35,256 nucleotides of DNA from NCBI GenBank assembly GCA_903927615.1, contig CAIYNU010000030.1, forward strand, positions 1-35,256, in the 5' to 3' direction. This DNA is from an uncultured Rhodospirillales bacterium (lineage in GTDB: Bacteria > Pseudomonadota > Alphaproteobacteria > Azospirillales > Azospirillaceae). Every line of letters begins with the position of its first letter. Position 1 is the stretch's first letter. Below the pieces are notes generated by a model. It was not told where the DNA came from. It saw only the letters and a program-made list of their open reading frames with translations, and searched no databases. Shown here one piece after another: positions 1 through 24,433 of this stretch. The position numbers and the translations under genes were made by a program.

Positions 1-502
1 CTAAGCAGCCATTCGTTTAAAATAAGCTGAAGCGGAATGTATAGCGTGGCATGACGGCCAATGTACACAATCAATTTAATAGCTATTTGTGCAAGGGCAC
101 TTAATCGACAGTGATATGATTTGCAGGCATTCCTGCAAATGAGTTGCTGCCGCTTCCAGCACCGCGATCCCGAAGCGGTTTCGTCGATTGTCATGACGCC
201 CCCATGGAATTAAGTTAATATCATTAAAATATATGGATATTTTGGTGAAATCAATACATATTAAATGTTATACGTGTAATAATGGTATAATAACCATCGT
301 ATAAATTGCATACATTTGTATGATAGCCGTGCGAATCCGTTGACCCGGCCTCTCGGTCCTGGGATGAGGGGGTTCGGACCAAAGCCGCAAAACCAGATGG
401 CTTGCTTGTATTGCGTAACGGGAGCAGATAACAGACGATCGATAGGTGTGATACTGGCCAGTCACGACAATGACACATTGTCGGTATCGGGCCACGCCGG
501 TC
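1..502. other. AT-rich gene-free stretch with inverted repeats
   Basis: No convincing gene is seen here. The first ~320 bases are much more AT-rich than the rest of the window and have no reading frame with the codon bias of the neighbours. They contain a perfect 9-bp inverted repeat (ATTTGCAGG/CCTGCAAAT, 119-140), a nested inverted repeat (TTATACG 268-274 with CGTATAA 298-304, enclosing ATGGT/ACCAT at 282-286 and 293-297) and CATACA/TGTATG at 309-322. Such structures fit operators, an attachment-type region or a 3' flank, but nothing identifies which. Bases 323-502 are GC-rich and end in the hairpin behind rsmA. Confidence 0.5.
465..483 (-). terminator. hairpin downstream of rsmA
   Basis: A perfect 8-bp stem, CGACAATG/CATTGTCG, with a 3-base loop lies about 20 bases behind the rsmA stop codon. 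There is no T-run, so it is either a weak or factor-assisted terminator or a 3'-end stabiliser for the lptG-surA-pdxA-rsmA transcript. Confidence 0.4.
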
Positions 503-2367: not shown

Positions 2368-3671
2368 ATCCGAACGTCCACGTAGGCGGCGCGCTTCAGG
2401 TCGATCAGATAACGCCGTTGCAGCATGTCGAGGCGCTCGTTGATCAGGCTGACGGTGATGGCATCCCGATTGGGCAGGCTGCCGGCCGGGGCCTCACGGC
2501 TGCACACCACCACCACCACCACCTGCTTGTCGTTTCCGAACGGCGGGCTGACCTGTCCGATGGGCAGATCGACCACCAGGCGAGACAATTCGGGAGGCAT
2601 GTCGCCGGCGCGCAAGGTTCCGACGTCGCCCTTCTTGTCCTGGCCGGCGGCCCGCAACTCGGCGTCGAAGGCGGCGCAGCCCTGCACCCGGTGGCCGAAT
2701 TCGGTCGCGTGGGCGACCTGGGTCTTGCGGTCGGCCCCGGAGGTGATCGGGAACACCATCTGCTTCAGGTGGACCTGAGTTTCCCGCGGATCGCCCCCGT
2801 TGATGGTGCGTTGATCGCGCACCAGCAAAATATGGTAGCCGCCGGGGTCGCGGATCGGCGTGCTCAGTTGTCCCGGCCGCATTCCGGACAGCGCGTGGTC
2901 CAGTTCGTCGGACAATTGGCCGGGTTCGACCCAGCCGAGGTCGCCGCCATTGCCGGCCCCGGCCGCCTGTGAGAATTGCCGGGCCACGGCGGGGAACGGC
3001 GTGCCGTGACGAATCTCGTCGACCAGATGATCGGCGAACCGTTTCACCTCGTCGTCCTGAGAGGCTTGGTCGACCGCCAGGAAGATCTCGGCGGTCAGGT
3101 ATTCGGGTTTGCCGGCGTTGGCGCGCAGGCGTTCCAGAGTTCCATCGACTTCTTCTTCGCCAATCTGGATGGTGGGCCGTAGTTTGCGCTGGATCAGTTT
3201 GGTCCAGGCGATATTGGCCTTGATCTGGAACGTCAGCGCGTTGACCGGCACCCCGCGCTGGGTCAAAAAGCGGTCCAGTTCGGCGCGCGGCAGATGATTC
3301 TGCTCGGCGATGCGGGACAGCGCGGTTTCCAGTTCCTGATTGCTGGCCGAGACGCCCATGCGACCGGCTTCCTGAAGCTCAAGCTTTTCGTCGATGAGGG
3401 CGCGCAGCACCTGTGGCGCGAGCCGTTGCCGGGTTTCCGCCGAGTCCGGCAGACCCGACGTCAATTGTGCAAGCCGTAACCGTGCTTCCAGGTCCAGCAC
3501 CGAGATGGCGTCTTCGTTGACCACGGCGGCAATCCGCTCCGTCGCCCGGGGCGGTGCGTCGGACGGGGCGGGCGCCTTTCGGTCCTGGGCGAATGTCTGA
3601 GAAGTTGCGGTGAGGACGGCGAAGGCGCCTGCACCGATCAGCAGGGACCGAAGGGCCTTGGTCACGATCAT
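2364..3671 (-). CDS. surA: periplasmic peptidyl-prolyl isomerase / OMP chaperone SurA
   Basis: The protein has 435 residues. An N-terminal signal peptide (about 1-28, ending TFAQ-D) sends it to the periplasm, where SurA escorts unfolded outer-membrane proteins to the BAM complex. The SurA N-terminal helical domain (about 40-185, starting RIAAVVNEDAIS) is followed by a first parvulin domain (about 193-288, with GGDLGWVEPGQL and GGYHILLV) and a more degenerate second one (about 296-395, with GDVGTL and GQVSPP). The second domain ends in an unusual run of six valines. The gene is 145 bp from lptG; a -10-like TATACT (minus strand, 3729-3734) lies in that gap without a good -35, so a private promoter is possible. 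lptD, the usual upstream neighbour and a SurA client, is missing. Confidence 0.92.
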   Translation of the reverse strand: MIVTKALRSLLIGAGAFAVLTATSQTFAQDRKAPAPSDAPPRATERIAAVVNEDAISVLDLEARLRLAQLTSGLPDSAETRQRLAPQVLRALIDEKLELQEAGRMGVSASNQELETALSRIAEQNHLPRAELDRFLTQRGVPVNALTFQIKANIAWTKLIQRKLRPTIQIGEEEVDGTLERLRANAGKPEYLTAEIFLAVDQASQDDEVKRFADHLVDEIRHGTPFPAVARQFSQAAGAGNGGDLGWVEPGQLSDELDHALSGMRPGQLSTPIRDPGGYHILLVRDQRTINGGDPRETQVHLKQMVFPITSGADRKTQVAHATEFGHRVQGCAAFDAELRAAGQDKKGDVGTLRAGDMPPELSRLVVDLPIGQVSPPFGNDKQVVVVVVCSREAPAGSLPNRDAITVSLINERLDMLQRRYLIDLKRAAYVDVRM

Positions 3672-21140: not shown

Positions 21141-22271
21141 TCAGGGACGCCCCGCGATAAAGGTTTGTTGTACCTGATGTAACGGGTCGAGCGTCACGAA
21201 GTCGGCCACGTAGCCTGCGGCGATGCGGCCGTAACGCCGGTCCAATCCCAGGAACGCCGCAGGATAGAGGCTGGCCATGCGCAAGGCTTCATCGACGGCG
21301 ATGCCGATTCGGTCGATGCAGTGGCGTACCGCCGTTGCCATGTCCAGGGCCGAACCGGCCAGCCGTCCGTCGGCGGTGACGCACCGCCCCTGGGTGACGG
21401 CGATGCTCTGGCTGCCCAGGGTAAAGGTCGACAACGCCGAACCGACCGGCGGCATGGCGTCGGTGACCAGAAACAGCCGGCCCCGTCTTTTGCTGCGCCA
21501 GGCCAACCGGATCGTGGCGTCGTGGAGGTGGTGGCCGTCGGCGATGATGCCGCACCAGCTTTCGGTGTCCTCCAGGGCGGCCCCGGCAATCCCCGGTTCC
21601 CGACTCGTGATCGGCGGCATTGCGTTGAACAGGTGGGTAAATCCCGTGACGCCGGCAGCCAGCGCGGCCTGGGTGTCCCGGTAGCCGGCGGCGCTGTGAC
21701 CGGCCGAAACACGGACTCCGGCGTCGGTCAACCGCCGGATCAGATCATGCGGAACGGTTTCGGGTGCCAGCGTGACCATCATGCAGCCGCCCGGCAGGGG
21801 AGCCATCAACGCCGCGTCACAGGCCTCGGGCGGCGCCAGCCAGCGCGCGTCATGGACTCCCCGGCGTTCCGGGTTGAGGTGCGGACCTTCCAGATGCAGG
21901 CCCAGGATGCCGGGCAGACCGGAGGCCAGGGCGGCGGCGACGGCATCGCGGGCCTGCCGGCGCTTGTCGCGGCTGTCGCTGATCAGGGTCGGCAACAGGC
22001 CGGTGGTGCCGAATCGGCGATGGGCCGCGGCGATGGTGGCCAGCGCGGTCGGGCTGGGGTCATCGTTGAACAGTACGCCGCCGCCGCCATTGACCTGGAG
22101 GTCGATGAAGCCCGGGGCGAGAATGGCGCCGTCCAGGTCCCGGCGCCTGGCCCGTTGGGGGATCGCGGAAGCCTGGACAACGTCCATCACCAAGCCATGC
22201 TCGACCAGCACGGCGGCATCCCGTCTGACCTCGTCGCCGGTATGGAGGATGGCGTTGGTGAAGGCGTCCAT
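21141..22271 (-). CDS. nagA: N-acetylglucosamine-6-phosphate deacetylase
   Basis: The protein has 376 residues, normal for NagA, an amidohydrolase-fold enzyme that deacetylates GlcNAc-6-P to GlcN-6-P in amino-sugar and cell-wall recycling. Visible are APGFIDLQVNG (52-62), the metal ligand E128 in HLEGPH, H192 in SAGHS, H213 in THLFNAM, DGHH (246-249) and the catalytic D271 in VTDAMPP. The ATG at 22271 has GGAG seven bases upstream; the frame stays open upstream but the extra ~76 residues are proline-rich and not family-like. No nagB, kinase or transporter gene is adjacent, so it stands alone here. Confidence 0.93.
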   Translation of the reverse strand: MDAFTNAILHTGDEVRRDAAVLVEHGLVMDVVQASAIPQRARRRDLDGAILAPGFIDLQVNGGGGVLFNDDPSPTALATIAAAHRRFGTTGLLPTLISDSRDKRRQARDAVAAALASGLPGILGLHLEGPHLNPERRGVHDARWLAPPEACDAALMAPLPGGCMMVTLAPETVPHDLIRRLTDAGVRVSAGHSAAGYRDTQAALAAGVTGFTHLFNAMPPITSREPGIAGAALEDTESWCGIIADGHHLHDATIRLAWRSKRRGRLFLVTDAMPPVGSALSTFTLGSQSIAVTQGRCVTADGRLAGSALDMATAVRHCIDRIGIAVDEALRMASLYPAAFLGLDRRYGRIAAGYVADFVTLDPLHQVQQTFIAGRP

Positions 22272-22599
22272 TGGGGGACTCCGGAGTCGGGGTTGGGCGA
22301 TTGTCGAGTCGGGGGTATAGGGAACTGGAAAACGGCCGTCCAGGGTGTCGAGTCGGGTCACCGTCGGGCTTGAGCCCATCGCGGGGCCGGCCCGGGGCGG
22401 ATCCGGCCGTGCCAAATCATGTGACGTTCCAGGAGGTTCCGGTTCGGGTCGGTGGTGACCCGATGTTAGTGATTGTCGTCCTGAAGGCAAATGTGGCACA
22501 AAAATGTCGCCGAGCCTCCGTCATTCGACCGAAAAGAAGCGGCGAAGAGGTCGGCGAAGAGGTCGGGGCCGATCTTGAGGCGGGCAGAATGCGGCGGGC

Positions 22600-22683
22600 A
22601 AAAAAAAGAGGCCGCTGTTGCCAGCGGCCTGAGTTTAGGGAGGAAACGCCCAAGAAGGGCGAAGCAACAATCGCTTGCTGCAA
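22600..22683 (-). ncRNA. suhB / alpha-r8 (MmgR-like) small RNA
   Basis: The minus strand reads as a compact ~80-nt trans-acting sRNA: a 5' stem AGCAA/TTGCT (22679-22663), a second stem CGCCC-ttctt-GGGCG (22661-22647), an unpaired stretch TTTCCTCCCTAAACTC (22646-22631), and an intrinsic terminator AGGCCGCTG-gcaa-CAGCGGCCT (22630-22609) followed by CT8. The single-stranded CCTCCC is an anti-Shine-Dalgarno sequence. This arrangement and the UUUCCUCCCU core are, as I know them, those of the alphaproteobacterial suhB/alpha-r8 RNA family, including MmgR of Sinorhizobium, which limits polyhydroxybutyrate accumulation. The start is estimated from the 5' stem and family length, not from a clear promoter. 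It is transcribed toward nagA but terminates well before it. Confidence 0.65.
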
Positions 22684-22688
22684 CGCAA
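22675..22688 (-). promoter_or_regulatory. TTGC/GCAA palindrome at the sRNA start, possible PhaR/AniA site
   Basis: The minus strand reads TTGCGTTGCAGCAA, with TTGC and GCAA half-sites around a TGCA core, just at or before the predicted sRNA start. PhaR/AniA-type regulators of polyhydroxyalkanoate metabolism bind TTGC-N-GCAA-type sequences, and mmgR in Sinorhizobium is, as I recall, repressed by AniA. The assignment is by analogy. Confidence 0.35.
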
Positions 22689-22890
22689 CATTGGCATAGG
22701 GCATCCGCTGTTGCAAGAGTGAAGCGCGCCGTCGGCCCAAAAAATGCTCTCTATTTGTGGTCGCTGTTGCTCAGTGGGCACAGATTGGGGATCGGACGGC
22801 TTAGTAAGGCAAGTCCCACCCCTGTCTTTTGCATAAACCGGCATTCATCGGTTGTCCGACGCTGGCCAGTGATCCTGGCTGGCACCGATG

Positions 22891-22936: not shown

Positions 22937-24364
22937 TCAGGCTTGCCGAACGGTGGCAATGAACTGGTCCACCTCGTGGGCGAGTTTTTCCGATTGGGTT
23001 CCGAGGGTGTTGGCGGCCGAAAGCGTTTCTCTGGCGCCCCGACCGACCTCTTGGGCGGCTTTGGAGACATCGGCGATATTCGCCGAAACCTCCTGTGTTC
23101 CGTGCGAGGCCTCGTTGACATTGCGAGCGATCTCGCGTGTCGCCGCGCCTTGTTCCTCCACGGCGGACGCGACGGCGGTTGAAATCTCACTCATGCGCCG
23201 AATCGTTCCCGTGATGCTCTTGATGGCCTCGACGCTGGTCCCGGTCACGCTCTGCATCTGCCCGACCTGCGCCTGGATGTCGTCGGTGGCTTTGGCGGTC
23301 TGATTGGCAAGATTTTTGACCTCGCTGGCGACCACCGCAAAGCCTTTGCCGGCTTCACCGGCACGCGCGGCTTCGATGGTGGCGTTGAGCGCGAGCAGGT
23401 TGGTCTGGCTGGCGATGTTATTGATCAGTTGGACGACGTCGCCGATTTTCTGGGCGGCTTCGGCCAGACCGTTGATGGTCGCGTTGGCCCGGTTGGCTTC
23501 GTCCACCGCCAGGATTCCGATTCTTGTGGATTCTGCGACCTGACGGGAAATTTCGGTGATCGAGCTGTTCAACTCGTCGGTGGCGGAGGCCACGGTCTGG
23601 ACGTTGGCCGAGGCCTGGGCTGCGGCGGCGGCCATGGCGGTGCTTTGGCGGTTGGTCTGGTCGGCTGTGACGGTCATGGATTCCGCATTGTGCTGTAACT
23701 GCCGCGCCGCAGCGGCCACCGCCGAGACCACATGTTTGACGTTGGCCTCGAAGGAGTCCGCCAACTGTTTCAGCGCGCTGCGTTTGCTCTCCTCAGCCTC
23801 CCGAATCTTGAGCCGGTCGCCAAGATCATGCCAGAAGCAGCACACGAGCGGCCGGTCATCGACCTTGAAGGCGACCAGGGTCACCAGGACATTGAAAACC
23901 GTGCCGTCAAGTTGGCAATGGGCCCATTCGAAGCGGTGATGACCGTTCTTGATCGCCATTCCGACCATTTCATTGGCCATGTCCCGGGAACGCCGGCCAT
24001 TGGGTTGGTATTCAGGGGAAAACTTGGCCGGGTGAATGCCTTCGATCTGTTCCCGGCGGGTTGCGCCCAGCATCCGCAGGGCTACGTCGTTACAGAACAG
24101 GATGCCGTTTTGGTCGAAGATGAATTGCCCGTCGACAGATGTGTCGAAGGTCGCGTTTAAAACCTGATCGCGAAAACTACGGTCAGCGAGACCATTCAAG
24201 CCGACCTGAAACAACCGGATCAGCATTGGGGCCAGACCCAACACGCTCGTGACTGTGCCAATCGCTACGGAAAACCATCCAAGATGGAGGTCGCCACTCA
24301 GCCAAACGGCGAAAAAAAAGGCCAAAGCTGCCAAGCCAGACCCGAACCGGAGAAGAATCCCCAT
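22937..24364 (-). CDS. PAS-containing methyl-accepting chemotaxis protein
   Basis: The protein has 475 residues. Two membrane helices (about 8-24 and 29-48) with almost no periplasmic loop anchor it. A PAS domain follows (about 63-182; [29 protein letters not shown]), then a long helical signalling domain (195-475) with the hairpin tip [20 protein letters not shown] (318-337) and [14 protein letters not shown] that contact CheA/CheW. Without an external sensing domain it probably senses an internal cue such as redox, energy or a small ligand via PAS. No HAMP domain and no C-terminal CheR/CheB pentapeptide is seen. The ATG at 24364 has AAGGG upstream; the in-frame start 23 codons earlier was rejected because it would precede the promoter. 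No che genes are adjacent. Confidence 0.88.
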
Positions 24365-24404
24365 GATGTTTAACCCTTCAAATGATATTTGACCAACTTG
24401 ACAT

Positions 24405-24433
24405 CTTGAACCACGGCGGCAAATTTCTGTCAA
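24405..24433 (-). promoter_or_regulatory. promoter candidate of the chemoreceptor gene
   Basis: On the minus strand TTGACA (24433-24428) is followed after 17 bases by TTCAAG (24410-24405). The -35 is perfect and the -10 poor, so an activator or different sigma factor may be involved. It sits about 40 bases upstream of the chosen ATG. Confidence 0.35.

Follow-up and report, generated by a model that had tools for sequence, protein, structure and literature searches.

A predicted alpha-r8 (suhB/MmgR) small RNA with a conserved PhaR/AniA-type promoter dyad, encoded upstream of nagA in a probably Azospirillaceae-like lineage

The small RNA MmgR of Sinorhizobium meliloti limits the accumulation of polyhydroxybutyrate (PHB). 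It is reportedly controlled by AniA and NtrC, as described in a paper of 2018. The effect of MmgR on PHB and phasins has been reviewed (PMC8401924). The palindrome described for S. meliloti PhaR/AniA is YGCRNYGCR with AT-rich arms, the mmgR site CAATTGTGCACCGCAGCATTA is bound efficiently by PhaR, and MmgR is overproduced without PhaR according to earlier work cited in the same article (PMC12542648). The RNAs SisA-D of Caulobacter crescentus, alpha-r8 according to their authors, share an anti-Shine-Dalgarno 10-mer through which SisA, with Hfq, was found experimentally to repress its targets; SisA is described as nearly constitutive and the SisA siblings as controlled by a sponge RNA, CrfA (PMC12559287). 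The family, the shared 10-mer, the occurrence of several copies and the control of one member by PhaR are already published (PMC12559287, PMC12542648). In a comparison with literature titles and abstract openings, none of the matches listed concerned alpha-r8 together with nagA, or alpha-r8 siblings with and without a PhaR dyad; the main mmgR papers lay outside this comparison and absence is claimed for neither subject. An unpaired CU-rich anti-Shine-Dalgarno loop is present in the CcsR/cuckoo RNAs. A DUF1127 gene is typical of CcsR loci (PMC10253847), and unpaired CU-rich anti-Shine-Dalgarno loops, two or three per RNA, are described for AbcR (alpha-r15, PMC7143759) and NfeR1 (alpha-r14, PMC10746234).

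The window, meaning the whole stretch of 35,256 nucleotides analysed here, contains on the minus strand a predicted alpha-r8 RNA of ~82 nt (22600..22681). The Rfam model RF00519 (suhB, described there as mmgR) matched the locus end to end (model 1-77, minus strand 22667-22594) with 66.9 bits and E 7.2e-12 against a gathering score of 41, the sole match in the 35-kb window to reach any gathering score. An earlier note, made from the letters of the DNA, had proposed the suhB/alpha-r8 identity and expected a transcript of 75-85 nt; the covariance match near 22600 bears out the former, and the latter agrees with the 82 nt obtained from the start at 22681 that promoter spacing predicts. The minimum free energy (MFE) of the RNA from 22681 to 22600 was -37.0 kcal/mol compared with -21.6 ± 3.1 for shuffled sequences (n = 200; z -4.94), none of which equalled it. 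The MFE fold comprises three hairpins, of which the last is the intrinsic terminator, and a stretch of 16 unpaired nucleotides. Hairpin SL1 (GCAGCAA-GCGA-TTGTTGC, 22664..22681) has seven pairs in the MFE fold and is covered in part by the Rfam model, while SL2 (CGCCC-TTCTT-GGGCG, 22647..22661) is found in both the RF00519 match and the fold. The unpaired targeting stretch identified by alignment and fold is UUUCCUCCCUAAACUC (= TTTCCTCCCTAAACTC, 22631..22646); it includes the 10-mer UUUCCUCCCU (22646-22637), which is unpaired in the MFE fold. The terminator AGGCCGCTG-GCAA-CAGCGGCCT (22609..22630) has nine pairs and is followed by C and eight T residues (22608-22600), so that the two stems, unpaired stretch, 9-bp terminator and T-run are all present where the earlier note had read them. 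A scan of 1.5 kb found four terminator-like sites versus a mean of 1.6 in shuffled sequences, the small-RNA terminator having the most pairs. These results support the 82-nt RNA, for which transcription is predicted, as a new member of the alpha-r8 (suhB/MmgR) family. MmgR is like it in the full-length RF00519 match, the anti-Shine-Dalgarno core and the three hairpins.

The alpha-r8 RNA is described as single in S. meliloti (PMC12559287), whereas at least two copies are present here, the window copy being the one beside nagA. Two RF00519 matches above the cut-off were found in the own genome (104 contigs), the window locus and C3:1981-2055 (54.1 bits); matches on C96 and C38 (30.7 and 30.2 bits) were dropped for lack of the 10-mer. 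Among the matches listed, at least 44 of 59 genomes, the own genome included, had a match above the cut-off. A census of 60 loci with flanks, 54 of them with the 10-mer, distinguished subtype A, which has an SL2 of the GCCCTTCTTGGGC kind and variants and includes the window copy, from subtype B, which has the SL2 AACGCACTTCTTGGGCGTT and includes the copy on C3. Of 22 type B loci, among which are L144, L148, L150, L152 and L154, 17 have a glucokinase-like gene in divergent orientation. Type A preceded nagA in 5 of 20, with 12 of the 54 loci left unassigned and one of these 12 having a glucokinase-like gene. Six loci without the exact 10-mer (L145, L146, L158, L166, L194 and L196) were kept outside these type counts and outside the alignment, dyad and matrix counts below, although L158 was used as a locus of subtype C. 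The latter is defined by the core AUUCCUCCCU, and a search for its pattern across the family gave 71 places, spread over 68 of the 82 genomes, versus 4 for the pattern read backwards. Inspection of 34 of these places, three from the genus of the window included, located tag near 31, the gene not being found at L318, L334 and L338; the names tag and glucokinase were read from the sequences rather than from a family search. Thirty of the inspected loci (L324-L353) and L158 represent a third alpha-r8 subtype, usually near tag. When six typical loci of this subtype were scanned with RF00519, five scored below 41 bits (26.6-39.5). Subtype C therefore tends to escape the Rfam cut-off, and many of its loci may go unannotated since five of six fall below the gathering score.

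A promoter of sigma-70 type is predicted from the sequence upstream of the RNA, with a -35 element TTGCAA (within CTTGCA, 22711..22716) 17 nt from a -10 element CAATGT (22688..22693) that was placed by eye through comparison with relatives. The CTTGCA is kept in the same-genus loci L147, L149, L151 and L153. A consensus promoter scan returned no sigma-70-like site in the small-RNA promoter region. Between the -10 element and the predicted start lies the PhaR/AniA-type dyad TGCGTTGCA (22679..22687), which conforms to the published motif YGCRNYGCR (PMC12542648). Such a dyad is common to both promoters, as CAATTGTGCACCGCAGCATTA in S. meliloti mmgR and CAATGTTGCGTTGCAGCAAGC here, and its position differs in that the dyad of the window touches SL1 whereas the S. 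meliloti site is reported to end 13 nt before the start (PMC12542648). Loci were drawn from the RF00519 matches listed across the genomes (97 places of a longer list, besides three further own-genome matches), and the stretch counted was 75 nt beginning 100 nt upstream of the 10-mer. YGCRNYGCR was present upstream in 86 of 97 alpha-r8 loci versus 243 of 4887 control stretches of equal length taken within those loci (nominal Fisher p 1.8e-93, uncorrected for relatedness), and the stricter TGC-N3-GCA in 46 of 97 versus 131 of 4887; L178, L197 and L199 were scored as dyad-free despite a TGC-N4-GCA form. Since the distance from its start to the 10-mer varies from 37 to 84 nt, the dyad does not belong to a single fixed portion of the RNA. 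Subtype C served as a natural control, with a dyad in 1 of 31 tag-linked loci when 85 nt were scanned. A matrix constructed from six S. meliloti PHB-gene sites, mmgR excluded, scored at least 8 in 49 of 59 loci. Scored with this matrix, the window's own site CAATGTTGCGTTGCAGCAAGC came seventh among all sites in the 35 kb, and its score was reached in 5 of 386 control stretches. It is a middling PhaR match whose weight comes from conservation, and the related loci are not independent.

The gene complement of the genome is consistent with a link to PHB storage. Matches were obtained for PhaR (158.3 bits), Hfq (111.8 bits) and a class I PHB synthase (792.2 bits), and five phasin matches were above the cut-off. 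In the 250 nt preceding each gene, TGC-N3-GCA dyads were found for three of five phasins, encoded on C55, on C59 and on C77, the last of these contigs carrying two phasin genes. The other C77 phasin gene, the C57 phasin match and phaC have none in that interval, and phaR has one ~155 nt upstream. The conserved promoter dyad together with the genes for PhaR, phasins and PHB synthase strengthens the link to PHB storage, and tuning of PHB by the RNA in this organism would follow by inference. From the family membership, the structure, the conserved dyad and the genes identified for PhaR, phasins, PHB synthase and Hfq, all computed here, we infer by analogy with the described systems that the RNA is transcribed, that PhaR and Hfq bind as they do there, and that it has mRNA targets and an effect on PHB. 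The probable reading is a trans-acting alpha-r8 RNA, an anti-Shine-Dalgarno repressor that depends on Hfq and is controlled by PhaR, with promoter activity, PhaR binding and targets as presumed parts of it. Transcription would run leftwards from a sigma-70-type promoter belonging to the RNA and stop at the RNA's own terminator before nagA. The unpaired UUUCCUCCCU, with Hfq, would pair with Shine-Dalgarno regions and repress translation of a set of mRNAs. PhaR (AniA) on the dyad between the -10 element and the start would set the level of the RNA. As PHB granules bind PhaR, the regulator would leave the dyad and the RNA would rise together with the phasins, whereupon the risen RNA may restrain phasins or other carbon genes.

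The best surviving alternative retains a trans-acting alpha-r8 RNA and dispenses with PhaR control, the dyad being an inherited 5'-end sequence (part of SL1) or the site of another regulator. The middling match of the window site is in keeping with this explanation, as is the overlap of the dyad in type A loci with the first three bases of SL1, and the promoters of the Caulobacter siblings are reported to have no common motif (PMC12559287), on account of which PhaR control is no rule for the whole family. However, in type B loci with a dyad it starts 51-76 nt before the 10-mer, farther upstream than in type A, and like dyads precede phasin genes of the same genome. On this evidence a dyad without PhaR is judged unlikely, a minority explanation that still deserves weight.

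The downstream neighbour of the RNA is nagA (N-acetylglucosamine-6-phosphate deacetylase; 21141..22271, minus strand; Pfam NagA_N and Amidohydro_1) and the upstream neighbour a gene for a methyl-accepting chemotaxis protein with a PAS domain (22937..24433, minus strand; Pfam), confirming the placement between nagA and a chemoreceptor gene that had been read from the sequence earlier. An FGase gene, which adjoins sisA and most single alpha-r8 copies (PMC12559287), is absent as an immediate neighbour here. From the nagA start at 22271 to the end of the T-run is 328 bp. In each of the five genus genomes compared (the own genome, L147, L149, L151 and L153) the RNA immediately precedes nagA, in the same orientation, and it does so in G006 and G027 as well. 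With coordinates compared by eye, at least 7 of the 37 genomes in which NagA was matched have the linkage. Eighteen named NagA loci, from 80 retrieved, were scanned; linkage was found in five, and these are the five best NagA matches (four Azospirillum records and one labelled Roseomonas, 59-61% identity). These relatives suggest that the lineage is Azospirillaceae-like. The upstream neighbour varies, with the chemotaxis gene here, ABC-transporter genes in L149 and seemingly one shared open reading frame, judged by eye, in L147, L151 and L153; no alignment of more than 150 aa to the chemotaxis protein was found within ~3 kb on each side in L147, L149, L151 and L153. Since the order of RNA and nagA persists while the upstream neighbour changes, the comparison of gene order indicates that the linkage is real in part of the family, and it is seldom seen elsewhere.

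Persistent linkage could also signify a cis-acting leader, with nagA controlled from the RNA promoter by partial read-through of the terminator. This explanation accounts for the same-strand position directly upstream of nagA in the five genus genomes, G006, G027 and the five named Azospirillum-type loci, and for the persistence of the linkage while the upstream gene differs. Against it, a strong terminator ends the RNA, and the distance from the 10-mer to the nagA start is long, 189-531 nt in 11 loci, of which ~47 nt is RNA. Most alpha-r8 copies with flanks are away from nagA (near it in 5 of 20 type A loci and 0 of 22 type B loci), and among NagA-bearing genomes the linkage was seen in the fraction given above, at least 7 of 37. 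Moreover, nagA start regions paired with the RNA no better than shuffled sequences, with 57 of 300 shuffles as good for the window and 23-298 of 300 across the 11 loci. The gap itself contains genus-conserved blocks that could be the promoter of nagA. A leader function was rejected for these reasons as improbable, and the trans-acting alpha-r8 RNA under PhaR control is retained as the preferred reading.

The gap between the two genes has features of its own. In 22272-22599, blocks of the CTTCTTTTCG and CGACATTTTTGTGCCACA kinds are kept in several same-genus loci and are perhaps a promoter or operator of nagA. In the Azospirillum-type loci L064, L065, L067 and L068, an inverted repeat of the CATAATCC...GGGTTATG kind is found in the gap before nagA, between the RNA and position 3501, and is a possible regulator site.

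The structure of subtype A was evaluated in an alignment of 52 loci (51 distinct rows), from which L149, which does not differ from the window in the part compared, and L066, missed by the pattern owing to one extra A, were left out. Rows were picked by the 10-mer and the dyad, the last three bases of which are the first three of SL1, and the invariance of the 10-mer and of part of the 5' arm of SL1 is partly the result of this selection. Changes on both sides of a pair were observed in 4 of 7 pairs of SL1, 5 of 9 pairs of the terminator stem and 0 of 5 pairs of SL2. In the given register 76.1% of SL2 cells pair, the remaining 24% departing because some relatives, as judged by eye, pair in another register. 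For all stems together 9 of 21 pairs were changed on both sides, a count reached by 7 of 500 shuffles but not one of independent events since the rows are related. The covariation score was 0.246 versus 0.145 when shuffled (0 of 500 as high), and slid versions gave 0.050-0.114. The alignment thus displays compensatory changes across relatives in the 5' hairpin SL1, of which the Rfam model includes just a part. A decayed, unexpressed alpha-r8 copy is very improbable given these compensatory stem changes, the intact promoter-like elements and terminator and the good fold, even though the genus probably has a diverged third copy. Equally remote is an RNA of the AbcR (alpha-r15) type, for which partial homology to RF00519 and anti-Shine-Dalgarno loops are reported, since AbcR1/2 are described as 114-120 nt with two CU-rich loops (PMC7143759) whereas the window RNA, at ~82 nt, has one CCUCCC loop and its RF00519 match, the only one at the cut-off, extends over the whole length.

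Taken with the gene neighbourhoods, the dyad counts allow a broader proposal, which we offer tentatively and with rather less than even confidence. Within the bacterial family the alpha-r8 RNAs would form three syntenic sibling lines (A, linked to nagA in some members of the family; B, in divergent orientation to glucokinase; C, close to tag), with the PhaR dyad in A and B and none in C. Through PhaR, the amount of stored PHB would govern a common pool of anti-Shine-Dalgarno RNAs that can replace one another, some of them beside sugar-entry genes, with subtype C outside this control. If true, two of the three siblings, all with the same targeting motif, would answer to PhaR. An RNA linked to PHB and known functionally from Sinorhizobium is now placed in what is probably an Azospirillaceae-like lineage, a finding that establishes no new principle.

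Target searches provided leads. A search of the own genome with TTTAGGGAGGAAA and up to two mismatches returned 41 places versus 28 for the backwards pattern, the two exact places being the two small-RNA genes. Exact AGGGAGGAAA-N1-10-ATG occurred at five sites in three of the five genus genomes. The pattern AGGGAGGA-N2-11-ATG gave 59 sites in the five genus genomes versus 15 for the backwards pattern, ATG starts alone being considered; all 59 were inspected and eight with reading frames shorter than 40 aa were dropped. Six similar pairs from different genomes were found with AGGGAGGA before ATG, none of which reached a third genome of the five, two additional pairs each being a single locus counted twice; the six pairs are leads only as putative targets. 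Pairing of the RNA with four phasin start regions was equalled by 37, 113, 174 and 87 of 300 shuffles, none of the four being outstanding.

A third locus in the own genome (G000:C13:7756-7769; L315 1000-1013; L317; relatives L318 and L319) has 22 nt identical to the core of the window RNA. Read in the opposite direction, TTTAGGGAGGAAG at this C13 locus is a 22-nt perfect complement of the window RNA, with relatives in G002 and G004, and that strand carries, downstream, the terminator-like GGCAAGCCGG-CGAT-CCGGCTTGCC-TTTTC (1 found versus 1.1 expected by chance). RF00519 had no match on the alpha-r8 strand of the C13 copy and a weak match on the opposite strand (25.5 bits, E 0.015), and matched the relative in G004 with 29.5 bits. 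A CrfA-like sponge was considered for C13 and set aside as the main reading, the terminator count being that of chance and most of the inspected pattern places elsewhere belonging to the third alpha-r8 subtype near tag; whereas CrfA controls the SisA siblings (PMC12559287), no sponge is established here. By comparison of the sequences, the locus is probably a diverged third alpha-r8 copy, the simpler reading. The bolder variant, in which the C13 copy would be read in antisense as a sponge for A and B, is retained as a less favoured alternative. A much larger number of copies was observed in genus g7 (G010, G019, G026, G030 and G034), where ten to fourteen alpha-r8 matches per genome at E 0.001, among the matches listed, represent an unusual expansion.
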